DNA of 64,000 nt from Eunapius fragilis (lineage: Eukaryota > Porifera > Demospongiae > Spongillida > Spongillidae). The position numbers and the translations under genes were made by a program. This document shows positions 36,826-64,000 of this stretch, piece by piece; within the stretch, counting starts at the first letter, position 1, and the number at the start of each line of letters is the position of its first letter. The stretch is taken from assembly GCA_963681505.1 (NCBI GenBank), contig OY811977.1, positions 9,987,007 to 10,051,006 of the forward strand, given 5' to 3'. The notes under the pieces are model-generated. The model saw nothing but the letters and a program-made list of their open reading frames with translations. It was not told the origin of the DNA and made no database searches.

Positions 36826-38047
36826 GGCATTATTAAGAGAAAGAAAACAGGTTACTCGTACGTTCCATGAATAAGGATTGTTACTCCACATGGTTGTTAA
36901 ATTAACACCATGGTGGGAAGATAGCCAATTATCCCCCACGGGAGGGAACCACTAATCTATTCGCATCATACAGCCAAACCAATGAGCTGATTATAGAGGA
37001 GGCATTATTTTGAGAAAGAAAACAGGTTACTCGTTCGTTCCATGAAGTAGGATCGCAACTCCACTAGTTTGTTAAATTAACACCTTGGTGGGAAGATAGC
37101 CATTTTTATCCCATAGAAATGTATGGGAGGGAACCACTAATCTATTTGCAAAGCACAGCCAAACCAATGAGCTGATTATAGAAGAGGCATTATTTTGAGA
37201 AAGAAAACAGGTTACTCGTTCGTTCTATGAAGTAGGATCGCAACTCAACTAGTTTGTTAAATTAACACCTTGGTGGGAAGATAGCCAATTTTCACCCATA
37301 GAAATGTATGGGAGGGAACCACTAATCTATTTGCATCGTACAGCCAAACCAATGGGCTGAATATATAGGAGGCATTATTTAGAGAAAGAAAACAGGTTAC
37401 TCGTTCGTTCCATGAATACATATCGCAACTCCACTAGTTTGTTAAATTAACACCGTGGTTGGAACATAGCCAATTTTCTCCCATAGAAATGTATGGGAGG
37501 GAACCACTAATCTATTTGCATAGTACAGCCAAACCAATGAGTTGATTATAGAAGAGGCATTATTTTGAGAAAGAAAACAGGTTACACGTTCGTAGCATGA
37601 ATACAGATCGCAACTCCAATTGTTTGTTAAATTAACACATTGGTGAGAAAATAGCCAATTTTTTCCCATAGAAATGTATGGGAGGGAACCACTAATCTAT
37701 TTGCATCATGCAGCCAAACAAATGAGCTGATTATAGAGAAGGCATTATTTTGAGAAAGAAAACAGGTTACCCGTTCGTCCCATGAAGTAGGATCGCAACT
37801 CCACTAGTTTGTTAAATTAACACCTTGGTGGGAAGATAGCCAATATTCTCCCATAGAAATGTATGGGAGGGAACCACTAATCTATTTGCATCGTACAGCC
37901 AAACCAATGAGCTGAATATATAGGAAGCATTATTTAGAGAAAGAAAACAGGTTACTCATTCGTTCCATGAATACATGTCGCACTCCACTAGTTTGTTAAA
38001 TTAACACCTTGGTTGGAACATAGCCAATTTTCTCCCATAGAAATGTA
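36826..38047. repeat. Satellite C, block 1: 185-bp tandem repeat
   Basis: About six and a half monomers. Landmarks in each unit are GGGAGGGAACCACTAATC, CAGCCAAACCAATGAGCTGA, GGCATTATTTTGAGAAAG, AACAGGTTACTCGTTCGTTC, GCAACTCCACTAGTTTGTTA and CCAATTTTCTCCCATAGAAA. Units start 185 bp apart. CTCCCATA-GAAATG-TATGGGAG forms an 8-bp stem. The first unit (36826-36950) is the most diverged and directly abuts the Penelope-like fragment. The last unit is interrupted after ...GAAATGTA by the DIRS element. The roughly 70-90-aa reverse-strand frames in each monomer are artefacts. Confidence 0.95.
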
Positions 38048-38123
38048 ATAGAGTTTAAGGTAGTTAAACGCAGTTAACCGACCATGGCGCACGTGTCGTA
38101 TCGCCCGCCGGGAAAGTTATAGG

Positions 38124-38130
38124 TATATAA
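38124..38130 (+). promoter_or_regulatory. Candidate TATA box of the DIRS-type element
   Basis: TATATAA lies 95 bp upstream of the Gag ATG at 38225 and 77 bp inside the element's left edge. The spacing is compatible with a short 5' UTR; there is no further support. Confidence 0.35.
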
Positions 38131-38224
38131 GGTCCTGGCGCATGCGTCAAACACACGTGCGTTCGAACCTAGCGGTCCAGACCTCGGTAACATTGCCAGC
38201 GCAGTTTTTTCTGTTTCGACTGAA

Positions 38225-39454
38225 ATGGTGGAGAAACCTACCCGGAGTGGAGAGGAGACGCAAGAGGTGCAAGATGGCGAAGACTCTCCTCCATTTAGCA
38301 AGCGCCAGTTGGCATGGATGGCTAATTTCGTGGCGCGTAATGGCCAGGCCTCGTCTTCCTCTACGCAAGCGTCGACCTCCTCTTCCCAATCGTCGTCCTC
38401 CTCCAGTAAGTCCATTGTTAAGTACATTTATTAGTCGTTGCTATAAGAAGACGCATGAGAATGTATTCGATCGATCGAGTGTTTTCACTCGTGACAGAGA
38501 AGCGGTATGGAAGGTTGTCTAAACCAGCGTCGCCCGAATCTAAAAAATCGACATTTACAACGGCAGCGTGGGCATGCATAATCAGTGTATACCGTGGTGC
38601 ATATGTGTTGTATCTCTATATTTATAGATTTGACCACCAAGGCTCCCCCCGAGACGAGCACCGAGATGCCAACGTTTACGCCACTCGGTGAGGCAGGGGT
38701 CACCCTGCTGCAACAGCTGCCAAGAGAGCCCGCAATCGCCGTGCAACTGGCATTCGACCCGGTCGCGACACTACCGGCGCGCTTGGTCAAACGGATTTTG
38801 GACTTCGACTTCGTCGAGATGTCCGATATGCTCCCCGATGCATGGCAGGAAGACTCTATTCCGGGATACGACCCGCTATCATCGTCGCGCCGAGTCGTCC
38901 GAAGGGCACCGATCACGGAGATCACGCTCTGGCTAGAAGGGTTTGGTCGGTTGGCCTCAGTCCTTACCTCAAGGTACCCCGGCAAGGCAGCCGAGATGTG
39001 GGCGTACCAGTCGTCGATAATTCGTGCCGCACGAAACTACGACGGTACTGCGTGGGTAGTCTACGACTGGCAATTCCGTCGCGAGGCCCTGGCTCGAAGG
39101 GACCTAAATTGGTCGGTGACCAATGCGCGGCTATACAGTGAAGGATTTACCGGGCGCGCCAAAGTGATCCCTCATTGCCGTTATTGTCTCAGCGAGACGC
39201 ACGATCTGCGGGCCTGCCCCGTGAACCCTGACAACCTAGACCCGACAAGTCGGAGGCAATCGAGTCCCGGCGCTTCGGGGAAGGACGTGTGCCGCAACTA
39301 TAACGAGGGGAAATGCCGGTACAGCCGCTGCAAGTACCAGCACGTCTGCCGAGAATGCCATTCCCCCCATCCATGGTCTTCGTGCCCTAGGAACACACGT
39401 ACACATCGGGAGGACCGTGATGGTCGGGACCGCTCCCGCCCACCTCGCCAATGA
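38225..39454 (+). CDS. Gag-like zinc-knuckle protein of the DIRS-type element (spliced, 335 aa)
   Basis: This is a putative structural, nucleic-acid-binding protein of the retrotransposon particle. My model joins exon 1 (38225-38405, donor A/GTAAGT) to exon 2 (38628-39454, acceptor TTTATAG); the phases match and give 335 aa. The N-terminus has FSKRQLAWMANFVARNGQ, then a Ser-rich linker. The middle is a helical Gag-like region with ITLWLEGFGRLASVL and WVVYDWQFRREA. The C-terminus carries a CCHC knuckle (CRYCLSETHDLRAC), a CCCH-type finger (CRNYNEGKCRYSRCKYQH) and a third Cys/His cluster (CRECHSPHPWSSC), then a basic Arg-rich tail. Without the splice, an ORF from 38585 would give a shorter start with an unrelated hydrophobic leader, so I prefer the spliced start. 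Confidence 0.75.
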
Positions 39455-39508
39455 CAAACTCGGGACTTGTGCATGTAATTGTTTACCGCGGGTGTTGGAA
39501 CACATGGA

Positions 39509-39602
39509 AAATCACCTCTTATTGATTGGTTTAATGGTTTAAAAGGGAAGGTCGTCCGTAAATCACCTCTTATTGATTGGTTCATTCATGGTTTAAAAGG
39601 GG
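39509..39602. repeat. Direct duplication between Gag and RT genes
   Basis: AATCACCTCTTATTGATTGG followed by TGGTTTAAAAGGG occurs twice with a 51-bp period, the second copy holding a few extra bases. It lies in the Gag-RT intergenic region. Whether it is a structural repeat of the element or a chance duplication is unclear. Confidence 0.8.
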
Positions 39603-39735
39603 GGGTTGCCTCCGCTCAGTTGAGCGTGAACGCCTGCCTTGACAGGCTTGTATTGCTTTGCACCGTCGTTATTGTATATATTATTAGACGCATGCATACA
39701 TAATATAATCATTAAACTGCATAATACGCCTGCAG

Positions 39736-41347
39736 ATCCCTACACGGCCGAACTCGTCGCCCTGCAGTCGTGCATGTCGGCACCGATGCTTCTAATAGGG
39801 AGCTTCGAAGGTGGTCGTAGCCCACAGAAACCCATGGCGTGGGAAATGGCTTTGGCTGGCCATCCGGACAGACGATTCGTGTCTTATATATGCACGGGGC
39901 TCAAAGAAGGATTCAGAATCGGGTTCGATCACCACTCGCACCCGCTGAAAAGCGCCGCAGCCAACATGTTCTCGGCACAGCAGTGTCCGGAGATTATCTC
40001 TCAAATGAGCTGAAGATGGAGAGATTGCTGGGTCCATTGGGTACCAGTCACCATCACGCGATTCACGTCAACAGGTTCGGGGTTATCCCGAAGGGGAACT
40101 CGGGAAAATGGCACTTGATCACCGACCTATCTTACCCACCGGGAAATAGTGTCAATGACGGAATCGACCCCAAGCTATGCTCACTGAAGTATACATCAGT
40201 GGAGGACGTGGCCGGGATAGCCGCAAAGCTCGGCCAAGGAGCGCTAATGGCCAAAGTCGATATTGAAACCGCTTATCGGCTGGTTCCAGTCCACCCCAAG
40301 GACCGCCCCCTCTTAGGTATGGAGTGGAGAGGAGACGTTTTCGTGGACCCGATGTTGCCATTTGGTCTCCGATCGGCTCCCAAAATCTTCAACGCCGTCG
40401 CTGACGCGTTGGAGTGGTACATTAAGGCCCGGGGCGTCACCTACGTGCGGCATTACTTGGACGATTTCGCAGTCATCGGCTCACCAGACTCCGACGAGTG
40501 CGCGGAGGCATTGACAACGCTCCGGGGCGTTTGTAAGGCACTGGGCGTACCCCTAGCTGAACACAAGACTGAAGGCCCAGCAACTCGGATCACTTATTTG
40601 GGGATTGAGATTGACACTCAGGAGGGCCAACTAAGCCTTCCTGCGGAGAAGCTGGAACGGCTGCAATCTCTGCTGGCAAGCTGGGGAGACCGGAAAGTAT
40701 GCTCGAAAAAGGAATTGGAATCCCTAATAGGCACACTGAATCACGCTTGCAAGGTCATCCGCCCCGGTAGATCCTTTCTCAGAAGGATGATCGACTTGCT
40801 CAAACTGAACGAGAAGGCGCATCACCAGATCCGCCTGAATCGGGAGTTTCGGTCCGATCTGCAGTGGTGGACTATGTTTTCCACCTCATGGAATGGAGTT
40901 TCTTACCTAACCGTACGAAACACGGTGGAATTTGCCACAGATGCATCGGGTACGTGGGGGTGTGGCGCCCTCTACGGAGGCTCATGGTTCCAGCTACAAT
41001 GGGACTCGAGTACTTTGGACCTGGCAATAGTCGTTAAGGAACTGCTTCCTATCGTGGTAGCAGCCGCGGTGTGGGGCTTGGTCTGGCGAGATCAAACAAT
41101 CTTATGCCACTGCGATAACCAAGCAGTCGTGGCAGTTCTTCGTTCAAGGACGAGCAAGCATCCACGGCTAATGCACATGCTGCGTTGCCTGTTTTTTATC
41201 GAAGCCTGCTACGGCTTCGAGTTGTCATCGGCATATATTGCCACTAGAGCCAACCATTTGGCCGACGACCTCTCGCGTAATAACCTATCTTCCTTCCTGT
41301 CAAAGGTTCCGTTAGCCCGCAAGTCGCCAGTCCCAATACCCTCATGA
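39736..41347 (+). CDS. Reverse transcriptase-RNase H of the DIRS-type element (frameshifted N-terminus)
   Basis: This polymerase copies the element RNA and removes the template strand. Its N-terminal part is in one frame from about 39736 (P-Y-T-A-E-L-V, then HPDRRFVSYICTGLKEGFRI) to a stop near 40013. The rest is in another frame, recognisable from NELKMERLLGPLG. The two frames meet around 40000, so a 1-nt shift lies there. The open frame that starts at 39839 begins in the wrong frame. RT motifs: VIPKGNSGKWHLITDLS, KVDIETAYRL (catalytic Asp), LPFGLRSAPKIFN, and YLDDF with the paired catalytic Asp. RNase H follows: FATDASGTWGCGAL, a conserved Glu in VVKELLPI, CDNQAVV, and NHLADDLSR. The stop overlaps the recombinase ATG (ATGA). 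A preceding CTGCAG may be a splice acceptor. Confidence 0.85.
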
Positions 41348-42360
41348 CTGTTGGAAGTTCTCCTAGACCCAGCAATGGACTGGACATCACCAGGCTGGAC
41401 GCGGCGCTTCAGGGCTACTATTACAACGGCCTCGCCCCATCGACCCACCGGTCATACGATTGCGCATTGAGGCATTTCAATTCCTTTTGTGTGGAGTATA
41501 ATGTATTCGACCCCTTCCCAGTAAATGAAAAACTACTTTGCTATTATGCAACCAAGCTGGCCAATGACGGCCTCGCCCCTCAGACGATTAAGGTTTACCT
41601 CTCAGCTATTCGGAACATGCAACTGTCCATGGGGCTTCCACCCCCGCGGGAAGAATCCACACTGCTCGTGCTAAAGAGGGTGCTAGATGGGATTCGCAGA
41701 ACTAGGGTGGCACAAGGCCGGAGCACACCGCGCATTCGTCTGCCGATCACAATAGCGGTGCTGAGACAGATTAGAGGGGTAATCGACAGAGCACCAGACC
41801 CCAATAGCCATGCGTTCTGGGCTGTAGCCACCGTTGCATTTTTCGGTTTCTTCCGTCTCGGAGAGCTACTGGTGGGAAACGAAGCCGAATACACGACCAC
41901 TACCCACTTATCATGGGGAGATGTAGCGGTGAATAGCAACTCAATGGCTTCCATGGTCAAAATACATTTGAAGAGGTCGAAGTGCGACCAGTTCGGAGCA
42001 GGGGCCGACGTACTGTTGGGCCGCACCGGATGTGACGTGTGTCCAGTGGAGGCGATAATAGCATATGTGAACCAAAGAGGCAAATCACCGGGGTACTTCT
42101 TCATCGATAGCGGGGGGAATGTTATCACGAAGCCACGGTTTATCACGAAGCTGAGAGACTACTTAAAAGCTATCGGGCTGCCTAGCGATCAGTTCGCAGG
42201 CCATAGCTTCCGTATCGGCGCCGCAACTACAGCTGCACAGGTTGGCATCGAAGACTCAATGATTCAAACTCTCGGCCGATGGCATAGTGCAGCCTTTCTT
42301 CGCTACATCCGAACACCTCACGACCGATTGGCGGCGCTCTCGATATCACTAGCGAAGTGA
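41344..42360 (+). CDS. Tyrosine recombinase of the DIRS-type element (338 aa)
   Basis: The enzyme would integrate the circular DNA copy by site-specific recombination through a 3'-phosphotyrosine. It starts in the ATGA overlap with the RT stop. The N-terminal half is a core-binding domain (LAPSTHRSYDCALRHFNSFC; LAPQTIKVYLSAIRNMQLSM). The catalytic domain has the first Arg in FGFFRLGELLVG, HSFRIGAATTAAQVG (H-x-x-R), GRWHSAAFLRYIRTP with the second His/Trp position and the nucleophilic Tyr. The Arg, H-x-x-R, W-H and Tyr positions of the family are visible and the length is normal. It looks intact, although the upstream RT is frameshifted. Confidence 0.9.
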   Translation: MTVGSSPRPSNGLDITRLDAALQGYYYNGLAPSTHRSYDCALRHFNSFCVEYNVFDPFPVNEKLLCYYATKLANDGLAPQTIKVYLSAIRNMQLSMGLPPPREESTLLVLKRVLDGIRRTRVAQGRSTPRIRLPITIAVLRQIRGVIDRAPDPNSHAFWAVATVAFFGFFRLGELLVGNEAEYTTTTHLSWGDVAVNSNSMASMVKIHLKRSKCDQFGAGADVLLGRTGCDVCPVEAIIAYVNQRGKSPGYFFIDSGGNVITKPRFITKLRDYLKAIGLPSDQFAGHSFRIGAATTAAQVGIEDSMIQTLGRWHSAAFLRYIRTPHDRLAALSISLAK

Positions 42361-42662
42361 CACGGACTGCATTGTCAATGTATTATGTATTCTAGCATCT
42401 ATGCATGTACTTAGTCTAGTGATAAATCTAGTTAACATCAACAGTTTGGGGGTGGACGAGGCACGCCCCCTTCCCACAGGGGCACGCCTCTTCACTGGGC
42501 AGGGTTGGCACGCCCACGGGTGGGCTGTGCCGCGAGAGACCACACACCCAAACAGATGGGGCGTGTACCTAACCCCTCAAAGCCTGGAGTTGGCCAATAC
42601 ATGAATGGGATAAGGGTGCACAGTGACTGGGCTCCGGTGCTCACATCCGAGTGAAGAGGTTA
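42361..42662. other. 3' terminal region of the DIRS-type element
   Basis: Non-coding, GC-rich towards its middle. GGCACGCC occurs three times (about 42461, 42481 and 42507). CCTCTTCAC (near 42486) and GTGAAGAGG (near 42651) form a distant inverted pair. Terminal and internal repeats of DIRS-order elements usually lie in such a region, but I cannot match it to the left end. Confidence 0.5.
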
Positions 42663-45039
42663 ATGGGAGGGAACCACTAATCTATTTGCATGGTACAGCC
42701 AAACCAATGAGCTGAATATAGAGGAGGCATTATTTTGAGAAAGAAAACAGGTTACTCGTTCGTTCCATGAAGTAGGATCGCAACTCCACAAGGTTGTTAA
42801 ATTATCACCTCGGTGGGAAGATAGCCATTTTTCTCCAATAGAAATGTATGGGAGGGAACCACTAATCTATTTGCATAGCACAGCCAAACCAATGAGCTGA
42901 TTATAGAAGAGGCATTATTTTGAGAAAGAAAACAGGTTACTCGTTCGTTCCATGAAGTAGGATCGCAACTCCACTAGTTTGTTAAATTAACACCTTGGTG
43001 GGATAATAGCCTATATTCTCCCATAGAAATGTATGGGAGGGAACCACTAATCTATTTGCATAGTACAGCCAAACCAATGAGCTGATTATAGAGTAGGCAT
43101 TATTTAGTGAAAGAAAACAGGTTACTCGTTTGTTCCATGAAGTAGGATCGCAACTCCCCAAGGTTGTTAAATTAACACCTTGGTGGGTAGATAGCCAGTA
43201 TTCTCCCATCGAACTGTATGGGAGGGAACCACTAATCTATTTGCATAGTACAGCCAAACCAATGAGCTGATTATAGAGAAGGCATTATTTTGAGAAAGAA
43301 AACAGGTTACCTGTTCGTTCCATGAAGTAGGATCGCAACTCCCCAAGGTTGTTAAATTAACACCTTGGTGGGAAGATAGCCATTTTTCTCCCTTAGAAAT
43401 GTATGGGAGGGAGCCACTAATCTATTTGCATAGTACAGCCAAACCAATGAGCTGATTATAGAGAAGGCATTATTTTGAGAAAGAAAACAGGTTACTCGTT
43501 CGTTCCATGAATACATATCGCAACTCCACTAGTTTGTTAAATTAACACCTTGGCTGGAACATAGCCAATTTTCTCCCATAGAAATTTTTGGGAGGGAACC
43601 ACTAATCTATTTGCATGGTACAGCCAAACCAATGAGCTGATTATAGAGAAGGCATTATTTTGAGAAAGAAAAGAGGTTACTCGTTCGTTCTATGAAGTAG
43701 GATCGCAACTCCACTAGTTTGTTTAATTAACACCTTGGTGGGAAGATAGCCAATTTTCTCCCATAGAATTGTATGGTAGGGAACCACTAATCTAATTGCA
43801 TCGTACAGCCAAACCAATAAGCTGAATATATAGGACGCATTATTTAGAGAAAGAAAACAGGTTACTCGTTCGTTCCATGAATACAAATCGCAACTCCACC
43901 AGTTTGTTAAATTAACACCTTGGTTGGAACATAGCCAATTTTCTCCCATAGAAATGTATGGGAGGGAACCACTAATCTATTTGCATCGTACAGCCAAACC
44001 AATGAGCTGATTATAGAGGAAGCATAATTTTGAGAAAGAAAACAGGATACTCATTCGTTCCATGAATACATATCGCAACTCCACTAGTTTGTTCAACTAA
44101 CACCTTGGTTGGAACATAGCCAATTTTCTCCCATAGAAATATATGGGAGGGAACCACTAATCTATTTGCATCGTACAGCCAAACCAATGAGCTGATTATT
44201 GAGGAGGCATTATTTTGAGAATGAAAACAGGTTACTCGTTCGTTCCATGAAGTAGGATCGCAACTCCACTAGTTTTTTTAATTAACACCTTGGTGGGAAG
44301 ATAGCCAATTTTCACCCATTGAAATTTATGGGGGGGAACCACTAATCTATTTGCATCGTACAGCCAATCCAATGAGCTGAATGCATAGGAGGCATTATTT
44401 AGAGAAAGAAAACAGGTTACTCGTTCTTTCCATGAATACATATCGCAACTCCACTAGTTTGTTACATTAACACCTTGGCTGGAACATAGCCAATTTTCTC
44501 CCATAGAAATGTATGGGAGGGAACCACTAATCTATTTGCATGGTACAGCCAAACCGATGAGATGATTATATAGAAGGAATTATTTTGAGAAAGAAAACAG
44601 GTTACTCGTTCGTTCCATGAAGTAGGATCGCAACTCCACAAGGTTGTTAAATTATCACCTCGGTGGGAAGATAGCCATTTTTCTCCAATAGAAATGTATG
44701 GGAGGGAACCACTAATCTATTTGCATAGCACAGCCAAACCAATGAGCAGATTATAGAAGAGGCATTATTTTGAGAAAGAAAACAGGTTACTCGTTCGTTC
44801 CATAAAGTAGGATCGCAACTCCACTAGTTTGTTAAATTAACACCTTGGTGGGATAATAGCCTATATTCTCCCATAGAAATGTATGGGAGGGAACCACTAA
44901 TCTATTTGCATAGTACAGCCAAACCAATGAGCTGATTATAGAGTAGGCATTATTTAGTGAAAGAAAACAGGTTACTCGTTTGTTCCATGAAGTAGGATCG
45001 CAACTCCCCAAGGTTGTTAAATTAACACCTTGGTGGGTA
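42663..45039. repeat. Satellite C, block 2
   Basis: About 13 monomers of the 185-bp unit, resuming at the exact monomer base where block 1 stopped (TGGGAGGGAACC) and cut again at ...CACCTTGGTGGGTA by the Tnp2-type transposon. With the 6746 bp of that insertion and its duplication removed, a variant string at about 44232 matches one at about 53013 after 2035 bp, which is 11 monomers. The array therefore had its higher-order pattern before the transposon arrived. Confidence 0.95.
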
Positions 45040-45049
45040 CCCGGGCGAA
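45038..45049. repeat. Left TIR of the Tnp2-type element with TA duplication
   Basis: TA (45038-45039) is followed by CCCGGGCGAA (45040-45049), matching the right end in inverse orientation at 9 of 10 positions. Beyond that the ends diverge (GCTTTGGG against AATTTAAG). Confidence 0.75.
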
Positions 45050-45057
45050 GCTTTGGG

Positions 45058-45235
45058 CGTTGCAACGCATAGCAGCGCGTTGTAAGAGTACAGTTTATAA
45101 TAGTAATTACTTCATACAACGCGTTGCCACGCTTTAGGCATGCCGTTGTATCGCGGTTTTAGGGCCGTTTTTCAAGCGTAACAGCGCGTTGTATACGCGT
45201 AACAACGCGTTATATGCACAACGCGTTGCAACGGT
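45058..45235. promoter_or_regulatory. Left subterminal AACGCGTT repeats
   Basis: The segment has at least six copies of a GCGTTG / CAACGC motif in both orientations: GCGTTGCAACGC (45058-45069, a perfect palindrome), AGCGCGTTGTA (about 45074 and 45183), ACAACGCGTTGCCA (about 45117), AACAACGCGTTA (about 45202) and ACAACGCGTTGCAACGG (about 45218). Subterminal repeat clusters are transposase-complex binding sites in CACTA elements, so this is the likely recognition region. Confidence 0.65.
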
Positions 45236-45353
45236 ATAATTCAATGTGTTTTTTTTTTTCAGATGATCAAGATGAAGAAAAAAAATGCAGCAAAATGTTA
45301 ATGCACCAAAAATGACTGTTGCACCACAAATGAGTTACAGTGCTACATCTGGC

Positions 45354-47922
45354 TCAGTGCGCCACCTCTCTGCCATTTTTGTTGGCGTTGGCACGAACAG
45401 TTCTACACTTGGAGTTCATGTTTACTTGGATGATGTGCTTCCATGCTGATGCATCCACTTCAGGATATTTGTATTGCACATGTACTAATAAATGTTTATA
45501 AATGATACATAAGGACAATAAAATACTACATCAACGAAACTTACAGCGAATACCATTGATGGTGCGTTGGTCAAGGAGTGGCCTTCCAGTAGGAGTTGGA
45601 GTACAGTTCCCTGTTTGAAGCTGGGCCTCCGTGAATAGCACCGTCATGAGGTGGATTGCAAGCTTGGAGGGTGTATCAGATATAAATTCTGCAGCCAGCA
45701 CCTTCCCCTGTTCCGCTCCTTCTATCCAGACCTGCTCCCCATTAGGATCACCTAGCCAACATCCTGTGAAATCAGAACGTGCTAATACATGTATAATTGT
45801 GGGTTCAAAAAACTTAAATGGGACAGTGTCCAGCAAAACATCTTGTTGTTATACTCTTTCCAGGACAAGCAAAATAAAAGTAACGCTCGCATTGAAATGT
45901 ATGGCTAATTATAAATTCAGTGCCTAATAACTTTGTGATGGATATGTCCAATTTAGGATGCAAAAGGACCATTTGATAGAAGCTCATTGGCGTTCACGGA
46001 AAATCAAACTTGAAAAACTAGCCACAAGGGAGATATTGCTGGACACTGTCCCATATATATATATATATATTTTTTTTTTTCATGGTACAAATGATACATT
46101 GTGCATTGTGCATGCATATACCTTTTTCAGTAGGTGCCATGCTACCACCGACTGCTCCTTTATCTAGGAAATTATAGAATATCAGATAAAAAACAACTTC
46201 ATTGCAACCGTGCTGTACCTTTCATGACTGCAGATTCTGTGCTTCCTTTCAATTGAATCTGTAGAGTTCGTCAATTCAAGTATACAAATGTTGAAATCCG
46301 TAATTGAAAATTACCAAATTCATCTGTCGCTGCAGTTCGTTCACACTCATTTCCAGGTCATACACCCTCTTTTTCATTCCTTGAATTGCCTGCTGCAGTG
46401 TAAAACAAAAGTTACTATGCGCACATTGAAGTCAGCACATTATATGACTAGAACCTTAAGGTCATCATTCGTTTCTTTGCTTGCATATGATTCTACGTTG
46501 TTCAAATTGAAGGCAATTTGTAAGTAAAGTTTTATTCATACCTCCATAACTTGACCAGCTAGTAGACGGTGAAAGCATTATACTAGAATCATTGTCCTAA
46601 GTTAGAAAGTAGAAACTCAAAATACCAGCTCGTACTTATTTTAACACATACCTGATTTTGCATGGAAGACATTGCTTTTCGTTTCTTGACTGGCTGCACA
46701 TAAAACTCTTCAGCATTCTAGAGCAAGTTACATGTAAACAGGTGATTATTTGTACTGCGATGATTTGGAAATTGTACCTCCAATCTGTATCTGCCTTCAC
46801 TGGCAACCTTCACCTGTTCCTAATTAACCAGATATAATAATTGTCATAAAAAAATATATGTATATATACCTTGTCATTCTTCATTGAAGTCAACAGTGCT
46901 GCACTTCGAGCCAGTGCTGCTTCATTCTTCTTTTTTTCTTTGCTGTGCTTCTACATGTATGTAGCATGCATGTTTGTGAAATCATACCACATTATCATCA
47001 TAACATACAGAAAGAGGTCTCCGAACTTGGGCTAAAAAGAAGGTAACAAATGTCTCAGCTCTGAGGATTGCATAATTAAATGGCCATACTACCTGCATCT
47101 TCTGTAGTTACAAGCTCCTCAGCCTCTTTCTCCACCTAACAAGACCAGATGTGTTTGTAATGTCAAACAAATAAATTAATTACATTGTCTTTCTCCAGTA
47201 AATTTGAGAGTGTGCTAGCTGCTTCAGGTTTCTTCTTTTTGCGGTTTTTCTATACAGCATGCATTGTTGTACATAATTATTACCACATTATGTCATAAAA
47301 CCTACGGAATTATGAGCTCTCTGAACTTTTGTGGTTGGAAGTAAAAAAGGAGCACATGTGTCAGTTTCAAGCTAAAGAGTCAAATGGGGCATTTAAGGTT
47401 GTACCTGTATCGTCTGTCAGCTTCCCGTTTTCTTTGTCCACTTTCAACTTCTTTTCCTCGCCCTCATTTCCTTCCTTTTCATCATCTATTATTATGAGCG
47501 GTTAAATTCATATTTAATCCAAACATTGACATACTCGATAACGATCCGTCACTATCGCCGCTTAAAGTGGCCAGCACAGCATCCATTTGCTTCCGCCCCC
47601 CTGCAACAAGAACAGTAATCACACCTATTAGTATTTCCATGAACAGAACCGAGTGCCGTGATTGTTGCCGTGTAGAAGCTGCCGTCCGTCCACTTAACTT
47701 CCACATTATCGCCGACTCTGATGGATTTGTCCGACTCAGAAGTTGATGTAATACACGATAAAGGGACAGCACTCTTTTTTCCGTCAGAAAACTCAACACA
47801 TGCATGTGTCGATGCTGTAAAAGTAGAATCCATATAGTGCCTAGGCTAATAAATAACTTTCACACAGAATCACACTACTTACGACACCAATTCACACTCT
47901 GCTGTCTAAGTGTAGCCGCCAT
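45354..47922 (-). CDS. Tudor-like/BEN-domain protein of the Tnp2-type element (17 exons, 414 aa)
   Basis: My exon model, from 5' to 3' (high to low): 47922-47883, 47814-47650, 47600-47535, 47485-47405, 47325-47306, 47249-47184, 47135-47093, 47031-47009, 46950-46870, 46819-46778, 46717-46652, 46596-46542, 46379-46315, 46258-46219, 46163-46122, 45763-45545, 45484-45354. All junctions are GT-AG and all phases agree. The ATG has A at -3 and G at +4. Residues 43-69 look like a Tudor/chromo-type barrel (SIRVGDNVEVKWTDGSFYTA). The middle is Lys/Glu-rich with nuclear-signal-like KKRK. The last two exons form a BEN domain: LAIHLMTVLFTEAQL, LLDQRTINGIR, then KYPEVDASAWKHIIQVN and KCRTVRA. BEN domains bind DNA and chromatin partners, so a role at the element ends is my inference. 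The exon-16 acceptor could instead be at 45781, adding six residues in frame. Confidence 0.8.
45818..46054. mobile_element. 237-bp MITE-like insert in an intron of the BEN gene
   Basis: A perfect 19-bp terminal inverted repeat, ATGGGACAGTGTCCAGCAA at 45818-45836 and its inverse at 46036-46054, encloses about 200 bp of non-coding sequence. It lies within intron 15 of the BEN gene and may explain why that intron (about 360 bp) is much longer than its neighbours. The TIR contains the near-palindrome GGACAGTGTCC. The flanks are AT-rich (TTAAA and TATATA), so a target duplication cannot be defined. Confidence 0.6.
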
Positions 47923-47982
47923 GTTTAACACGTGTACAAACTGTGATAAACCAGGAATTCTCCGCATACTCTACAATTTAAA
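47923..47982. promoter_or_regulatory. 60-bp divergent promoter region between the BEN and transposase genes
   Basis: Only 60 bp separate the two ATGs, so both mRNAs must start in or near this segment, with 5' UTRs that may overlap. It contains ACACGTGT (47928-47935), a palindromic E-box-like CACGTG. I see no TATA box. An out-of-frame ATG at 47921 on the plus strand lies upstream of the transposase ATG. Confidence 0.5.
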
Positions 47983-50900
47983 ATGTCTAACCCTCGGTTA
48001 GTATTCTTACGTGATGGTGGTCCTATTCCTCCGAGAACGAAAAGGCGTCACAGCTTGTTTTCTTCAACACCGCGTACTAATGCAGTGTCAGAATGTGACT
48101 TTGATTGTCGACCGTTTGAATTGGGCAATGCTAGTTCTGATTCTGACATAGTTTATAGTGATGTCGATGACGTAACTGAACCAGACAGTTCTATAGTAGA
48201 CGATTCGAATGGAAGCGATACCGATAATTTCTGTGATGAAATATGGAATGGAAGTGATACTGATGACGTTAGTGATGATGGAAACCATGATTCATTGTTT
48301 GACGAAGATATTACTGATCGCATGAAGGATGTAGATGGTGAATCTGGTGATTTTTTTGAATATTGTGTACCTTTATATCCAAGTGCTATTAAAACTGTTT
48401 TTGAGTACCATGTAGAGACATATCAGTTTGCATTGAAGCACAATCTCACTAAAGTTGCTTACCAAGATCTCTTAAATCTTATCCCTCAATTTTTACCTTC
48501 CTCTAACTTGGCAATAAAATCCCTACATAAACTCAAGGGCCTCTTTAACAACATTTGGAACAGAGATGTGGCCCTCAGTAAGCACAGGTACTGTTCGATT
48601 TGTCACATTCCATTGACAAAAGATGAAAAAGTGTGCTCACGCAATTGTGGCCAAGCCATTGAACATTTCGTATTGTGTGACATTGAACTACAATTGAGGA
48701 CATTCATGTCAGGTAATTTTTATTTGGCCACAATGTTTTAACTTTATGCTTTTTTATTGTGCAAGATCCAAACATATGGAATTGTTTGCAATTGCGTTTC
48801 AAACATGATGGGAGATTGACAGACATATATGGTGGTGCAGAATACAAAAAACTTATGGAGCCTGGACAATTTCTGTCGCATCCAGAAAATGTATCCTTTT
48901 GTTTGAATACTGATGGTATTCAAGTCTTCAAGTCATCAAATACTGAGATTTGGCCAATTTGGTTACAGATCAATGAACTTCCCCCTGCAATGAGGTAAAC
49001 TTTTTTTCATTTGCAATTATCACATAGTTATACTTGGTCATTTTCTAGATTCTCTAAAAAATATGTCATTTTGGCGGGCATTTGGTATTCCAAAGATAAG
49101 CCAACCATGTCAACCTATCTTCAACCACTAATAGAGAAAATTAATATCCTTTATAATGAAGGTTACAGTATGTTGCATATAATAATGATCTCACATACTA
49201 TATGTGTACCATTTCTCAGGGTTTGATGTGTGTACACCAGCAGGTCAAAGGAAGGCTCATGCCATCATTTTGCACTGCTCTGCTGATCTTCCAGCTGCTG
49301 CTAAAGTTGGAAATCATATGCAATACAATGGATACTATGGTTGTGGCACTTGTGATAGCTCTGGTACATTAGTGGGTCGTACTATGTACTGGCCTTTTGA
49401 TTCTGCAGCACATATTCGAACACATGACTCTATTCTAAAGTGTGCTGAAGAAGCAATAAAACAAAAAAAAGCGGTACACTCTATTAATACACTTTAGCTG
49501 TTATTTTAACATTTCTCATTTTTCATCAGGTATTTGGCATTAAAGGGTTACCAATTATGGCCTTGCACCATCCTTTTCACCTAGTTTACGGCATGGTTAA
49601 AGACATTCTGCACTGTGGATATCTAGGAGTTGTGAAAGCATTGCTTGTAAATCATTGGTTCTCCACAACGAACAGAGATAAAGATTACAACATTGTTGAT
49701 AAGGTAGAGCTGTATCCATGATCTGACATGCACTCAATTTTATGCAACTGTTCATGCACTCAGTTAAGCATTTGTGATAATATTCTTGAGAATATACTTG
49801 TACCAAATACGATTTCAAGACCTCCTAGGTCATTGAGACACTTGGCCAGATGGAAAGGTAATATCTAATATAAAGACATTGTGATAACATTTAAAACATT
49901 TTTTCAGGGTCTGAATTTCAATCATGGCTGCTGTATTACTCTATTCCAGTGTTGAAGGACATTCTTCCAAATAAGTATTTTGAGCATTATGTGCTGCTTG
50001 TGGGAAGTATCCACATTATGATGAGTGATGACATATCTGATTTTGACATTCAGCTTGCTGAGTGCTGTCTTAATCACTTTTACATTCAGTTTTCAGATTT
50101 GTATGGTAATTAAAACATGCATGCTTCTTGCATAATGCATTTCATGTCATCTTAATTCAGGGGTATCTTCCACAACAATGAATGTACATTTACTCAGTCA
50201 CCTATCATTGTATGTTCGGCTGTGGGGTCCATTGTGGACAACATCATGCTTCTGCTTTGAAAGCCTGAATGGTGACCTGAAAAGATTATTTCATGGAACA
50301 AAGAATATGTCAATGCAGGTAAGAGAGAAGTGATAAAAAGATACATTTCAAACACTTCAATTTCAATAGCTGTTATACTCGTTTGGAATGTCGCAACTAC
50401 TTCCACATGTTATGAAGAAGGGAATAGTTAATTGCAACCCAAGCTCAAGGTAAATGTTTGCATTTCTCCCTTTCTACCACTTCAGATACATTTATCCCTT
50501 TGTAGTACCATTTCAGGGCATTCTATTCATTCTACAGTGTACAAACTGGGTAAAGGTTGTAACGCAGATAATTACGTCACAACGACTGTGTTACAACAAA
50601 TGTGTGAAGTAATGGGAACAAGTGTCCGATCACATGATTGTGAAGTATTCTTCAGAGCATCTGTGAGGAATGAAATTTTTAATTCTGTTGCATACACAAG
50701 AACTAAAAAACAAAACAGTTATACAGTTGCATACAATCAGAACACAGGCATTGGAGAAATTGAGTACTATGTTTCATTCAAGCATTCTGAAACAATCCTA
50801 GCAGTCATTACTCCATTCCACATGATGACACCTCCAACTGTATCTTCTTTTGCTTGTATCCAGGAATACATAAGTACGAGACTGGGAGTTCTTGATCAAT

Positions 50901-51031
50901 TGAACAGAGGAAGCAAAATTATAATTTCTGCAAAAGACATATACTGTAAATGTGTGACCATGAGAATAGGATCGAAATTGTATGCTTGTAGGCTTGCAAA
51001 TCATTTGTATAATTCATCATTAATTAAGTGA
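47983..51031 (+). CDS. Tnp2-family (EnSpm/CACTA-type) transposase (10 exons, 851 aa)
   Basis: It would cut and rejoin the element at its inverted ends with an RNase H-fold acidic triad. Exons: 47983-48712, 48766-48994, 49049-49161, 49220-49473, 49530-49703, 49764-49857, 49908-50105, 50161-50318, 50370-50449, 50506-51031. All introns are 46-60 bp and GT-AG, with every phase consistent. The N-terminus (about 1-120) is Ser/Asp-rich and acidic. A Cys cluster follows near 200 (CSICH, then CSRNCG). Tnp2 signatures: CLNTDGIQVFKSS (Asp293), WPIWLQINELPPAMR, LAGIWYSKDKP, YGCGTCDSSG, FGIKGLPIM, KDILHCGYLGVVKALL (Asp467), ISRPPRSL, WLLYYSIPVLKDILP, and CFESLNGDLKRLFHGT (Glu631). These residues are my candidate triad. 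The exon-6 acceptor (49763) is the least certain; an alternative after TTCTTGAG would drop nine residues in frame. No stop or frameshift is seen. Confidence 0.87.
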
Positions 51032-51469
51032 ATTATGTAATACAATTCTTAGTATGAAAAACAGTACTCTGATATTTGTGTTATTGTAATATGCTCTTTC
51101 AGTGTTATTATAGTAATACACAATGTCATGTATTTCTGCAATGTACATGCACATAGTCACTAACTTTACAATCCAAGCATAGTTAACTAAGTGTACTATT
51201 ATTAGCATGCATTTAAGTATTCAATTGTCCAGTTCCATATTTGCATGTGTAAACAGTTACGGTATAAGATTAACACGCTTGGCGTTAGTGCTGTTCAGTA
51301 TATAAAGTGTCGATGTAATCATAGCGCGATGTTTAATTCCCTCCGTATGGTAATTAATGCATATGCGATAAGAGTGTACGAATTTATCGCGAGCTCTTTA
51401 GTAATGAATCTACTTTAAGCTAAACAATTGATGCAGCTACGACTACCATATTTAGGCCGTTTGCATTAG

Positions 51470-51489
51470 CCCCCCCCCCCCCCCCCCCC
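51470..51489. repeat. Poly-C tract (20 C), possible G-quadruplex on the minus strand
   Basis: Twenty consecutive C residues are followed by AACCCCCTTCCCC. On the complementary strand this gives several G runs suited to quadruplex formation. It lies about 300 bp inside the right end of the Tnp2-type element, downstream of the transposase stop. Confidence 0.8.
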
Positions 51490-51644
51490 AACCCCCTTCC
51501 CCGGTTTCTATACGCCTCTGTGCTCAATGGATACTATCATATCTCATAATAATGACCTATGCAGAGCGCGATGATTCCCCTGCTATCTATATAAACTTAT
51601 ACTGATCGATCGAGCAGCGCGGACTCCCGAGCAGGATCCTCAAT

Positions 51645-51666
51645 ACAACGCGTTCCAACGGCAACT
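51645..51666. promoter_or_regulatory. Right subterminal AACGCGTT repeat
   Basis: ACAACGCGTTCCAACGGCA matches the left-end copy at 45218 (ACAACGCGTTGCAACGG) in the same orientation. A related ACGCGTGTAC lies near 51753. Fewer copies than on the left give an asymmetric element. Confidence 0.55.
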
Positions 51667-51773
51667 TTTCTCTCGGGTAGCTGGTGCCCAGTCCCTACAA
51701 ACACGTGAACTAACGGAAGGTAACGCCATCCAACAAAATTGTGCGCATGAATACGCGTGTACACACTTAAATT

Positions 51774-51785
51774 TTCACCCGGGTA
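51774..51785. repeat. Right TIR of the Tnp2-type element with TA duplication
   Basis: TTCACCCGGG (51774-51783) is the inverse of the left end with one mismatch, followed by TA (51784-51785) and the resumed satellite monomer GATAGCCAGTATTCTCC. Confidence 0.75.
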
Positions 51786-54700
51786 GATAGCCAGTATTCT
51801 CCCATCGAACTGTATGGGAGGGAACCACTAATCTATTTGCATAGTACAGCCAAACCAATGAGCTGATTATAGAGAAAGCATTATTTTGAGAAAGAAAAGA
51901 GGTTACTCGTTCGTTCCATGAAGTAGGATCGCAACTCCACTAGTTTGTTTAATTAACACCTTGGTGGGAAGATAGCCAATTTTCTCCCATAGAATTGTAT
52001 GGGAGGGAACCACTAATCTAATTGCATCGTACAGCCAAACTAATAAGCTGAATATATAGGACGCATTATTTAGAGAAAGAAAACAGGATACTCGTTCGTT
52101 CCATGAATACAAATCGCAACTCCACTAGTTTGTTAAATTAACACCTTGGTTGGAACATAGCCAATTTTCTCCCATAGAAATGTATGGGAGGGAACCACTA
52201 ATCTATTTGCATCGTACAGCCAAACCAGTGAGCTGATTATAGAGAAGGCATTATTTAGAGAAAGAAAACAGGTTACTCGTTCGTTCCATGAATACATATC
52301 GCAACTCCACTAGTTTGTTAAATTAACACCTTGGCTGGAACATAGCCAATTTTCTCCCATAGAAATTTTTGGGAGGGAACCACTAATCTATTTGCATGGT
52401 ACAGCCAAACCAATCAGCTGATTATAGAGAAGGCATTATTTTGAGAAAGAAAAGAGGGTACTCGTTCGTTCTATGTAGTAGGATCGCAACTCCACTAGTT
52501 TGTTTAATTAACACCTTGGTGGGAAGATAGCCAATTTTCTCCCATAGAATTGTATGGGAGGGAACCACTATTCTAATTGCATCGTACAGCCGAACCAATA
52601 AGCTGAATATATAGGACGCATTATTTAGAGAAAGAAAACAGGTTACTCGTTCGTTCCATGAATACAAATCGCAACTCCACTAGTTTGTTAAATTAACACC
52701 TTGGTTGGAACACAGCCAATTTTCTCCCATAGAAATGTATGGGAGGGAACCACTGATCTATTTGCATCGTACAGCCAAACCAATGAGCTGATTATAGAGG
52801 AAGCATAATTTTGAGAAAGAAAACAGGATACTCATTCGTTCCATGAATACATATCGCAACTCCACTAGTTTTTGCAACTAACACCTTGGTTGGAACATAG
52901 CCAATTTTCTCCCATAGAAATATATGGGAGGGAACCACTAATCTATTTGCATCGTACAGCCAAACCAATGAGCTGATTATTGAGGAGGCATTATTTTGAG
53001 AATGAAAACAGGTTACTCGTTCGTTCCATGAAGTAGGATCGCAACTCCACTAGTTTTTTTAATTAACACCTTGGTGGGAAGATAGCCAATTTTCACCCAT
53101 AGAAATTTATGGGAGGGAACCACTAATCTATTTGCATCGTACAGCCAAACCAATGAGCCGAATGCATAGGAGGCATTATTTAGAGAAAGAAAACAGGTTA
53201 CTCGTTCTTTCCATGAATACATATCGCAACTCCACTAGTTTGTTAAATTAACACCTTGGCTGGAACATAGCCAATTTTCTCCCATAGAAATGTATGGGAG
53301 GGAACCACTAATCTATTTGCATGGTACAGCCAAACCAATGAGATGATTATATAGAAGGAATTATTTTGAGAAAGAAAACAGGTTACTCGTTCGTTCCATG
53401 AAGTAGGATCGCAACTCCACAAGGTTGTTAAATTATCACCTCGGTGGGAAGATAGCCATTTTTCTCCAATAGAAATGTATGGGAGGGAACCACTAATCTA
53501 TTTGCATAGCACAGCCAAACCAATGAGCTGATTATAGAAGAGGCATTATTTTGAGAAAGAAAACAGGTTACTCGTTCGTTCCATGAAGTAGGATCGCAAC
53601 TCCACTAGTTTGTTAAATTAACACCTTGGTGGGATAAAAGCCTATATTCTCCCATAGAAATGTATGGGAGGGAACCACTAATCTATTTGCATAGTACAGC
53701 CAAACCAATGAGCTGATTATAGAGTAGGCATTATTTAGTGAAAGATAACAGGTTACTCGTTTGTTCCATGAAGTAGAATCGCAACTCCCCAAGGTTGTTA
53801 AATTAACACCTTGGTGGGTAGATAGCCAGTATTCTCCCATCGAACTGTATGGGAGGGAACCACTAATCTATTTGCATAGTACAGCCAAACCAATGAGCTG
53901 ATTATAGAGAAGGCATTATTTTGAGAAAGAAAAGAGGTTACTCGTTCGTTCCATGAAGTAGGATCGCAACTCCACTAGTTTGTTTAATTAACACTTTGGT
54001 GGGAAGATAGCCAATTTTCTCCCATAGAATTGTATGGGAGGGAACCACTAATCTATTTGCATCGTACAGCCAAACCAATATGCTGAATAAATAGGAGGCA
54101 TTATATAGATAAAGAAAACAGGTTACTCGTTCGTTCCATGTATACATATCGCAACTCCACTAGTTTGTTAAATTAGCACCGTGGTTGGAACATAGCCAAT
54201 TTTCTCCTATAGAAATGTATGGGAGGGAACCACTAATCTATTTGCATCGTACAGCCAAACCAATATGCTGAATAAATAGGAGGCATTATTTAGAGAAAGA
54301 AAACAGGTTACTCGTTCGTTCCATGAATACATATCGCAATTCCACTAGTTTGTTAAATTTACACCTTGGTTGGAACATAGCCAATTTTCTCCCATAGAAA
54401 TGTATGGGAGGGAACCACTAATCTATTTGCATGGTACAGCCAAACCAATGAGATGATTATATAGAAGGAATTATTTTGAAAAAGAAAACAGGTTACTCGT
54501 TCGTTCCATGAGGTAGGATCGCAACTCCACAAGGTTGTTAAATTATCACCTCGGTTGGAAGATAGCCATTTTTCTCCAATAGAAATGTATGGGAGGGAAC
54601 CACTAATCTATTTGCATAGCACAGCCAAACCAATGAGCTGATTATAGAAGAGGCATTATTTTGAGAAAGAAAACAGGTTACTCGTTCGTTCCATGAAGTA

Positions 54701-57700
54701 GGATCGCAACTCCACTAGTTTGTTAAATTAACACCTTGGTGGGATAATAGCCTATATTCTCCCATAGAAATGTATGGGATGGAACCACTAATCTATTTGC
54801 ATAGTACAGCCAAACCAATGAGCTAATTATAGAGTAGGCATTATTTAGTGAAAGAAAACAGGTTACTCGTTTGTTCCATGAAGTAGGATCGCAACTCCCC
54901 AAGGTTGTTAAATTAACACCTTGGTGGGTAGATAGCCAGTATTCTCCAATCGAACGGTATGGGAGGGAACCACTAATCTATTTGCATAGTACAGCCAAAC
55001 CAATGAGCTGATTATAGAGAAGGCATTATTTTGAGAAAGAAAAGAGGTTACTCGTTCGTTCCATGAAGTAGGATCGCAACTCCACTAGTTTGTTTAATTA
55101 ACACCTTGGTGGGATAATAGCCTATATTCTCCCATAGAAATGTATGGGATGGAACCACTAATCTATTTGCATAGTACAGCCAAACCAATGAGCTGATTAT
55201 AGAGTAGGCATTATTTAGTGAAAGAAAACAGGTTACTCGTTTGTTCCATGAAGTAGGATCGCAACTCCCCAAGGTTGTTAAATTAACACCTTGGTGGGTA
55301 GATAGCCAGTATTCTCCCATCGAACTGGATGGGAGGGAACCACTAATCTATTTGCATAGTACAGCCAAACCAATGAGCTGATTATAGAGAAGGCATTATT
55401 TTGAGAAAGAAAAGAGGTTACTCGTTCGTTCCATGAAGTAGGATCGCAACTCCACTGGTTTGTTTAATTAACACCTTGGTGGGAAGATAGCCAATTTTCT
55501 CCCATAGAATTGTATGGGAGGGAACCACTAATCTATTTGCATCGTACAGCCAAACCAATGAGCTGATTATAGAGGAAGCATTATTTTGAGAAAGAAAACA
55601 GGATACTCATTCGTTCCATGAATACATATCGCAACTCCACTAGTTTGTTCAACTAACACCTTGGTTGGAACATAGCCAATTTTCTCCCATAGAAATGTAT
55701 GGGAGGGAACCACTAATCTATTTGCACCGTACAGCCAAACCAATGAGCTGATTATTGAGGAGGCATTATTTTGAGAATGAAAACAGGTTACTCGTTCGTT
55801 CCATGAAGTAGGATCGCAACTCCACTAGTTTTTTTAATTAACACCTTGGTGGGAAGATAGCCAATTTTCACCCATAGAAATTTATGGGAGGGAACCACTA
55901 ATCTATTTGCATCGTACAGCCAAACCAATGAGCTGAATGCATAGGAGGCATTATTAAGAGAAAGAAAACAGGTTACTCGTTCTTTCCATGAATACATATC
56001 GCAACTCCACTAGTTTGTTAAATTAACACCTTGGCTGGAACATAGCCAATTTTCTCCCATAGAAATGTATGGGAGGGAACCACTTATCTATTTGCATGGT
56101 ACAGCCAAACGAATATGCTGAATAAATAGGAGGCATTATTAACAGAAAGAAAACAGGTTACTCGTTCGTTCCATGAATACATATTGCAATTCCACTAGTT
56201 TGTTAAATTAACACCTTGGTTGGAACATAGCCAATTTTCTCCCATAGAAATGTATGGGAGGGAACCACTAATCTATTTGAATGGTACAGCCAAACCAATG
56301 AGCTGAATATATAGGAGGCATTATTTAGAGAAAGAAAACAGGTTACTCGTTCGTTCCATGAATACATATCGCAACTCCACTAGTTTGTTAAATAAACACC
56401 GTGGTTGGAACATAGCCAATTTTCTCCCATAGAAATGTATGGGAGGGAACCACTAATCTATTTGAATGGTACAGCCAAACCAATGAACTGAATATATAGG
56501 AGGCATTATTTAGAGAAAGAAAACAGGTTACTCGTTCGTTCCATGCATACATATCGCAATTCCACTAGTTTGAAAAATAACACCTTGGTTGGAACATAGC
56601 CAATTTTCTCCCTTAGAAATGTATGGGAGGGAACCACTAATCTATTTGCATCGTACAGCCAAACCAATATGCTGAATAAATAGGAGGCATTATTTAGATA
56701 AAGAAAACAGGTTACTCGTTCGTTCCATGTATACATATCGCAACTCCACTAGTTTGTTAAATTAGCACCGTGGTTGGAACATAGCCAATTTTCTCCAATA
56801 GAAATGTATGGGAGGGAACCACTAATCTATTTGCATCGTACAGCCAAACCAATATGCTGAATAAATAGGAGGCATTATTTAGAGAAAGAAAACAGGTTAC
56901 TCGTTCGTTCCATGAATACATATCGCAATTCCACTAGTTTGTTAAATTTACAATTTGGTTGGAACATAGCCAATTTTCTCCCATAGAAATGTATGGGAGG
57001 GAACCACTAATCTATTTGCATGGTACAGCCAAACCAATGAGATGATTATATAGAAGGAATTATTTTGAAAAAGAAAACAGGTTACTCGTTCGTTCCATGA
57101 AGTAGGATCGCAACTCCACAAGGTTGTTAAATTATCACCTCGGTGGGAAGATAGCCATTTTTCTCCAATAGAAATGTATGGGAGGGAACCACTAATCTAT
57201 TTGCATAGCACAGCCAAACCAATGAGCTGATTATAGAAGAGGCTTTATTTTGAGAAAGAAAACAGGTTACTCGTTCGTTCCATGAAGTAGGATCGCAACT
57301 CCACTAGTTTGTTAAATTAACACCTTGGTGGGATAATAGCCTATATTCTCCCATAGAAATGTATGGGATGGAACCACTAATCTATTTGCATAGTACAGCC
57401 AAACCAATGAGCTGATTATAGAGTAGGCATTATTTAGTGAAAGAAAACAGGTTACTCGTTTGTTCCATGAAGTAGGATCGCAACTCCCCAAGGTTGTTAA
57501 ATTAACACCTTGGTGGGTAGATAGCCAGTATTCTCCCATCGAACTGTATGGGAGGGAACCACTAATCTATTTGCATAGTACAGCCAAACCAATGAGCTGA
57601 TTATAGAGAAGGCGTTATTTTGAGAAAGAAAAGAGGTTACTCGTTCGTTCCATGAAGTAGGATCGCAACTCCACTAGTTTGTTTAATTAACACCTTGGTG

Positions 57701-63700: not shown

Positions 63701-64000
63701 GAATAAATAGGAGGCATTATTTAGATAAAGAAAACAGGTTACTCGTTCGTTCCATGTATACATATCGCAACTCCACTAGTTTGTTAAATTAGCACCGTGG
63801 TTGGAACATAGCCAATTTTCTCCAATAGAAATGTATGGGAGGGAACCACTAATCTATTTGCATCGTACAGCCAAACCAATATGCTGAATAAATAGGAGGC
63901 ATTATTTAGAGAAAGAAAACAGGTTACTCGTTCGTTCCATGAATACATATCGCAATTCCACTAGTTTGTTAAATTTACACCTTGGTTGGAACATAGCCAA
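51784..64000. repeat. Satellite C, block 3: 185-bp tandem repeat to the window end
   Basis: About 66 monomers continue beyond the window, with no insertion. Variants define subfamilies: AAGTAGGATCGCAACTCC against AATACATATCGCAACTCC, and TATTTGCATCG against TATTAGCATCG with ACAGGTTACTCG preceded by GTAGAAAAAA. The first type dominates before about 58 kb, the AGCATCG/GTAGAAAAAA type after 59.2 kb. The single short reverse-strand frames per monomer are not genes. Confidence 0.96.
60680..63640. repeat. Eight-monomer higher-order repeat in satellite C (2 x 1479 bp)
   Basis: The ordered set of variants from about 60680 to 62160 is repeated from about 62160 to 63640 with a constant 1479-bp shift (8 x 185 minus 1) and almost no differences, for instance the private AGTAGTTGGATAAAATAAC at about 61370 and 62849. 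Another duplication of 13 monomers (2404 bp) relates about 55788 to 58192. Confidence 0.85.

Follow-up and report, generated by a model that had tools for sequence, protein, structure and literature searches.

The window analysed here is a stretch of 64,000 nucleotides from Eunapius fragilis (assembly GCA_963681505.1, contig OY811977.1, positions 9,987,007-10,051,006 of the forward strand). Positions 45040-51783 of the window are occupied by a 6744-bp element that interrupts, base-precisely, a satellite with a 185-bp monomer and carries two divergent genes, one for a Tnp2-type transposase and the other for a protein with a BEN domain and a Tudor-like segment. Rejoined at a single TA, the flanks match intact satellite stretches with up to 99.0% identity over 398 bp, and the uninterrupted version of the insertion site, TGGGTAGATAGC, which characterizes a monomer subtype, is read at 6 of the 83 monomer sites found in the window. 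Because of these two observations the borders can be set to the base and a 2-bp target-site duplication, TA, can be assigned at 45038-45039 on the left and at 51784-51785 on the right. The element begins with the terminal inverted repeat CCCGGGCGAA (45040-45049, plus strand), which matches the repeat at the opposite end, CCCGGGTGAA (51774-51783, minus strand), in 9 of 10 positions; the terminus consensus is CCCGGGYGAA. An earlier reading of the letters alone (hereafter the sequence-only reading) had already recognized a base-precise insertion with two intact, divergent, multi-exon genes whose ATG codons are separated by 60 bp, and the rejoined flanks and open frames agree with it. Both gene models were built by hand, with GT-AG at all introns; their weakest piece is an 11-nt exon at 47316-47306. 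Relatives of the element in the same genome fall into four families, the window copy belonging to family 1.

The transposase gene (47983-51031, plus strand) encodes 851 amino acids, with no stop, in ten exons: 47983-48712, 48766-48994, 49049-49161, 49220-49473, 49530-49703, 49764-49857, 49908-50105, 50161-50318, 50370-50449 and 50506-51031. Its product passes the Pfam cut-offs of Transposase_21 (tnp2; 60.5 bits, 1.7e-16, cut-off 28.6) and DUF1258 (37.7 bits, 2.1e-9, cut-off 33.1), and the family 3 transposase scored 48.8 bits against Transposase_21. The motifs TDG, D-x-P-A, GCxTC and FE-x-x-N-G are invariant in the transposase alignment of families 1 to 3. By their position in this alignment they are candidates for the catalytic residues DDE (Asp, Asp, Glu) and C2C, which in the window would be the D of NTDG, the D of SADLPA, the C2C of CGTC and the E of FESLNG. 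The features D, D, E and C(2)C between the second D and the E, given for the EnSpm-Mirage-Chapaev-Transib (CMCT) clade in the available part of PMC12730594, are present, and no invariant H pair at H(3-4)H spacing was seen between the second D and the E in the alignment of families 1 to 3, inspected on its own without a CMCT reference alignment. The transposase is of a known kind, Tnp2/EnSpm-like, and a profile scan of viral and prokaryotic collections found no relatives of it. The element itself is outside CACTA in the narrow sense. The sequence-only reading had called it CACTA-type, and of this label the Tnp2 transposase holds, whereas the ends are CCCG instead of CACTA and the target duplication in the window is of 2 bp and not of the 3 bp that define CACTA/EnSpm in the narrow sense.

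The BEN domain was reportedly first described by Abhiman et al. in 2008. The gene that carries it in the window (45354-47922, minus strand) encodes 435 amino acids, with no stop, in 18 exons. Exon 2 (47650-47814) contains the Tudor-like segment THACVEFSDG...VKWTDGSFYTATITAL, an exon at 46315-46392 encodes a probable coiled coil upstream of BEN, and the last two exons (45354-45763) encode the BEN domain with its recognition-helix motif WKHIIQVNMNSKCRTVR. Against Pfam BEN the window protein scored 22.5 bits (1.3e-4), slightly below the cut-off of 23.2, and the protein of another locus, L053, 19.0 bits (0.0017), also below it. The identity of the domain is nevertheless supported by sister families 2, 3 and 4, which exceed the cut-off with 29.6, 27.8 and 39.5 bits (7.8e-7, 3e-6 and 6.8e-10). 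Concerning the N-terminus, matches to Pfam Tudor_2 were below the cut-off of 31.4 in the window (20.2 bits, 5.1e-4) and in family 2 (24.4 bits), and for families 3 and 4 the Pfam search reported no match to Tudor; for this reason we keep the label Tudor-like. A profile of the four N-termini gave weak matches to the Tudor chains of KDM4A, PHF20L1 and SMN in the PDB (0.003-0.1), over about 20-30 residues only. In the heptad run before BEN, 8 of 9 a/d positions are hydrophobic in the window and 6 of 8 in family 2, each count being the best of seven registers within hand-picked stretches. The profile check called for by the sequence-only reading was thus passed by the transposase and, in three sister families, by BEN, and left the Tudor part below threshold.

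A BEN profile was made from seven rows, four from families 1 to 4 and three from other BEN loci (L051, L052 and L053). Its top match in the PDB was human BANP (5.5e-10), followed by BEND3 (2.7e-7), and the BANP segment WYRIKQ-SIDSKCRTA stands opposite WKHIIQVNMNSKCRTVR of the window in the alignment. With BANP numbering derived from the residues named in the cited papers, equivalents of Lys314 and Arg316 are found in all seven rows, those of the four element families included, and the position of Ser313 is occupied by Ser in three rows and by Ala in four. According to the parts of these papers that were available, S313 and R316 of BANP contact bases (PMC10206803), and the Arg316 site is conserved among CpG-binding BEN domains and is key to CpG selection (PMC11472053). 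The latter source also reports that BANP binds unmethylated CGCG with two BEN domains per CGCG and oligomerises via its coiled coil, and that methylation of CGCG repels the full-length protein, which acts as an activator of some essential genes at CpG islands (PMC11472053).

The ends of the element are rich in CGCG. Seven copies make up a left subterminal array (45063-45233; at 45076, 45120, 45152, 45185, 45196, 45206 and 45222), three of them within AACGCGTT, a subterminal repeat found at 45118, 45204, 45220 and 51647. Four more lie near the right end (51567-51757; at 51567, 51618, 51649 and 51754). The sequence CAACGCGTTG, with up to two mismatches, occurs six times in the first 210 bp, a number reached by none of 1000 dinucleotide shuffles. 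The left and right 250 bp of the window element hold 7 and 4 of its 14 CGCG; the corresponding figures are 10 and 1 of 30 for family 2 (C4 copy), 7 and 5 of 13 for the C4 copy of family 3, 7 and 4 of 12 for its C6 copy, and 7 and 6 of 14 for L054. CGCG is therefore concentrated at the ends in all three families whose ends are mapped, with the left end predominating in family 2. The ratio of observed to expected CpG ranges from 0.50 to 0.72 in the interiors and from 1.31 to 2.97 at the ends; in the window it is 0.50 in the interior and 1.96 and 1.31 at the ends. The intergenic gap of the window element is free of CGCG, which places the arrays away from the shared promoter. Two relatives that begin CCCAGTG and CCCAGCA and are not known to have a BEN partner contain no CGCG in their first 250 bp and carry TTGGCCAAGA-type repeats there instead, a control of two families at the 5' ends only, as their right ends are not securely mapped.

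At the protein level, the BEN product matched the genome at 45 places in 27 loci, window included, and the transposase matched it at no fewer than 71 places in at least 50 loci, 53 of 644 first-look candidates having been scored. Counting the window, six of the 27 BEN/Tudor loci have one of the 50 Tnp2 loci no more than 8 kb away, whereas 0.1 would be expected by chance; a seventh pair (L057), with a partial transposase of the same clade, was found by fetching the flank. Both genes are adjacent and divergent at these 7 of 27 loci, which are spread over four diverged families. To the window, the transposases of families 2, 3 and 4 are 63, 51 and 52% identical, the BEN domains 53, 50 and 53% and the Tudor-like segments 54, 33 and 42%. 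Because BEN and transposase travel together, the tests that the sequence-only reading had set against itself (other copies without BEN, a capture found only here, or profiles that fail) do not refute it, and a one-off capture of BEN is rejected by the co-residence in four families. For nine more BEN loci (L057; L054, L056 and L058; L047; L051, L052, L053 and L055) the sequence was retrieved together with the upstream flank, and 15 of the 27 BEN loci were examined to flank level. A genome search with Pfam BEN (PF10523) hit three places, all of them outside the 27 loci and away from the window; used by itself, this profile detects such loci poorly in this genome.

Family 1 comprises the window element and a decayed copy on C1, 87-91% identical at the DNA level, from which the left end and some middle parts are missing. 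Family 2 has copies on C11, C4 and C1, the first two 96.8-98.6% identical in long shared stretches; it starts with CCCGACGAATAATTTACGCG and ends in CCCGGG, its termini being CCCGACG/CCCGGG. L047 is a family 2 copy without a recognisable transposase. Family 3 includes full-length copies on C6 and C4, 98.8-99.3% identical in long stretches, and transposase-less copies, and is bounded by CCCGTAGGAAAA and, in inverted orientation, the same 12 letters; it probably moved recently because its first 204 bp are 100% identical in five places. Family 4 is L057 on C23, for which no ends were found. Exact 2-bp duplications flank three of the five copies with both ends mapped: TA in the window, CA at L045 and AT at L054. 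As to the structure of individual copies, a ~190-bp inversion lies within the transposase gene of L045 (L045:5227-5415) compared with its close sister L046, whose reading continues through. About eight 153-bp tandem repeats occur near the right end of family 3 (L046:7861-9001 and L045:7207-8493) and are matched in L054 and L056. At L042:7829, in a copy of family 2, the 3' part of the transposase seems to be broken up by a sequence that starts with CAGTGTTGCCGCGGCC and is probably a further transposon.

Three family 3 copies, L054, L056 and L058, share a common deletion of the transposase and keep BEN exons; open reading in such copies was assessed in the exons that encode the Tudor-like and BEN parts. 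In L054 both ends are present, the AT duplication is exact and the exons for Tudor and BEN are open. L056 also has both ends, and its Tudor and BEN domains are open, with a stop just past the aligned helix. L058 retains the left end, and its BEN gene, which carries a frameshift, is interrupted by ~3.7 kb. L020 (C14) resembles these copies in a sequence stretch that stops before the deletion position.

When 15 transposases are placed in a tree, those of the four BEN-linked families group as a single clade (99/95) beside mostly intronless Tnp2 lineages, with a long-branch warning that concerns L055 foremost. By coordinates from the BEN search of the genome, 10 of the 11 outgroup transposases have no BEN place within 10 kb, the remaining one being L055. 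BEN probably joined this transposase clade before the four families split. At L055 itself a distant intronless Tnp2 (~25% identity; L055:1094-7501) is divergent from the BEN gene at a distance of ~4.6 kb, an arrangement due either to chance or to a second kind of pairing, and a 1.3-kb BEN-bearing stretch of this locus is 97% identical to L052.

Since the BEN domain is of the CGCG-recognising kind and the ends of the element are CGCG-rich, the two genes look like a pair of a cutter and an end-binder. We therefore regard the element, with some confidence, as a two-gene cut-and-paste DNA transposon, Tnp2/EnSpm-like, with CCCG termini and 2-bp target-site duplications, whose BEN protein is a predicted end-binder similar in function to TnpA and of independent origin. 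The transposase would cut and join the short terminal repeats, the CCCG ends, and the BANP-like BEN protein, with its probable coiled coil and Tudor-like N-terminus, would bind the CGCG repeats inside the ends as an oligomer. By coating the CGCG arrays, this oligomer might mark, pair or license the ends in the manner of a TnpA-like accessory factor. Binding, end pairing, a need for the protein in transposition and the role of its Tudor-like part are what we infer from these features. The sequence-only reading had proposed BEN as a TnpA analogue acting on the AACGCGTT repeats; the BANP-like domain, the retained CpG-selecting Arg, the CGCG-rich ends and the lack of CGCG at the 5' ends of relatives without a known BEN partner point the same way, and the binding itself is predicted from sequence. 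A more detailed version, which we offer tentatively, is that of a methylation-sensing end-binder: the BEN protein would grip unmethylated CGCG only, so that the transposase would act only on copies that have not been silenced, the Tudor-like part would read the local chromatin, and the transposase-less BEN copies would spread as helpers or competitors of the full element.

The main rival is a methylation or anti-silencing role, in which the BEN protein would be a chromatin factor: instead of pairing the ends, it would occupy their unmethylated CGCG and keep the element in an active state. The behaviour of full-length BANP described above, repelled by methylated CGCG and active at some CpG-island essential genes (PMC11472053), would agree with it, as would the CpG-depleted interior of the window element between CpG-rich ends and a chromatin-reader-like N-terminus. 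There is also a precedent in the TET/JBP genes that the available part of PMC12730594 describes in fungal EnSpm, Plavaka and ESTA elements. However, CGCG lies at the ends and is missing from the intergenic gap, a distribution that fits end-binding better, and we hold the anti-silencing role to be rather doubtful. The sequence-only reading had also suggested that BEN tethers the element to satellite heterochromatin. The element does sit in a satellite, and a different satellite in the window, with a 52-bp unit (1-20592), contains 266 CGCG in total. Yet the 185-bp satellite around the element has no CGCG in the three blocks 36901-38047, 42663-45039 and 51784-64000, and other copies are found on several contigs. 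This part of the reading is not upheld, and we consider tethering very improbable.

Several observations weigh against an end-binding role. In family 2 the right 250 bp have a single CGCG and the interior has 19. Under 500 shuffles per end that kept the dinucleotides of that end, the CGCG excess was modest or absent at several ends: the observed count was reached by 34 (left) and 22 (right) shuffles in the window, 0 and 353 in family 2, 206 and 6 in the C4 copy of family 3, 185 and 36 in its C6 copy, and 158 and 2 in L054. The signal is therefore one of CpG-rich ends as much as of CGCG itself. The control without BEN is limited to the two families and 5' ends given above, and a further copy of the CCCAGTG relative (C11:7586822) has a Pfam BEN place ~8 kb away. 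According to the available part of PMC10206803, the isolated BEN domain of BANP binds DNA in a mainly electrostatic, TC-specific and methylation-insensitive way, and its optimum, AAATCTCG, differs from AACGCGTT. Of the five copies mapped at both ends, two lack an exact duplication (L046, TA/AA, and family 2 on C4, TG/TA).

Further points on this side would also suit a BEN gene captured from the host and carried as a passenger without a role in transposition. Within family 3, the ratio of nonsynonymous to synonymous substitution rates does not fall clearly below 1 in the exons for Tudor and BEN, and selection on BEN in the transposase-less copies, looked for in the same exons, was not found. 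The BEN tree, which is weakly resolved, joins families 2 and 3 (92/93), whereas the transposase tree joins families 1 and 2 (99/98); simple co-divergence of the two genes is not borne out, and some exchange between them is possible because the trees disagree. In addition, L051, L052, L053 and L055, all fetched with flanks, have no transposase of the same clade. In spite of these points passenger status is unlikely: the gene, its divergent position and its domain order are constant across four families with transposases 51-63% identical, the BEN frame is open in the window, and CGCG ends accompany BEN, the two relatives without a known BEN partner having none at their 5' ends.

The predicted division of labour resembles that of plant CACTA elements (En/Spm, Tam1 and Tgm), which combine a Transposase_21 transposase with a second element-encoded protein and have short inverted termini, subterminal repeat arrays and deletion derivatives. 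In maize En/Spm, according to the available part of PMC2613891, TNPA recognises the subterminal repeats, TNPA and TNPD are both required, and there is little resemblance between the TnpA-type proteins of different elements. The window element differs in its CCCG... termini and 2-bp duplications, against CACTA and 3 bp, in having two divergent genes where the plant elements use a single, alternatively spliced unit, and in its second protein, which is BEN/Tudor-like and matched no TnpA-type family in the Pfam search. Fungal ESTA and Plavaka elements with TET/JBP are also similar in their EnSpm-like transposase, their extra chromatin-related gene and their 2-bp duplications (TA in ESTA, 2 bp in PlavakaA), as far as the available part of PMC12730594 describes them. 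Their extra gene, however, is a dioxygenase and not BEN, and the termini of PlavakaA are TGT..ACA (PMC12730594), ESTA being compared by description. BANP/SMAR1, a human CpG-island BEN protein and the top PDB match of the BEN profile, shares with the window protein the Lys314 and Arg316 equivalents and a coiled coil in the same protein. Unlike it, BANP is a host gene outside transposons, for which the available part of PMC11472053 gives a coiled coil, BEN and a DNA-binding domain and no Tudor part. Its coiled coil is N-terminal, whereas that of the window protein lies shortly before BEN. The sequence-only reading knew of no described CACTA-type element with a BEN/Tudor partner, and a literature search outside of which most subscription papers and Repbase fell found, among the papers listed, no description of a BEN domain or BANP paired with a transposon either, so that a BEN partner of a Tnp2-type transposon appears to be undescribed. 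The slot of the second protein in En/Spm-type elements seems here to have been taken by a domain for which crystal structures have already revealed the DNA code (CGCG, Arg316), and co-evolution of accessory protein and subterminal repeats is therefore testable with a known DNA reader. There is also a hint of traffic between transposons and chromatin BEN genes.

Other features were noted in the element and around it. A sequence resembling a miniature inverted-repeat transposable element, with the inverted repeat GGGACAGTGTCCAGCAA, lies at 45815-46057 inside the longest intron of the BEN gene; it probably predates the split between the window and C1 copies because part of it aligns in the latter. 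An island at 38048-42662 within the 185-bp satellite contains an open reading frame with RVT_1 (8.4e-15), then one for a phage-integrase-like tyrosine recombinase (sub-threshold, 0.0012), and looks like a DIRS-type retroelement. An open reading frame on the minus strand at 35850-36683 encodes a GIY-YIG domain (22.8 bits against a cut-off of 22.6) of the kind seen in Penelope-like elements. The consensus unit of the 52-bp satellite contains CCCGCGGG, and this satellite is followed by one of a 33-bp type, GACTCCTGCAGGAGTC. From 36904 to 64000, subtypes of the 185-bp monomer recur in the same orders, a higher-order repeat pattern seen by eye.

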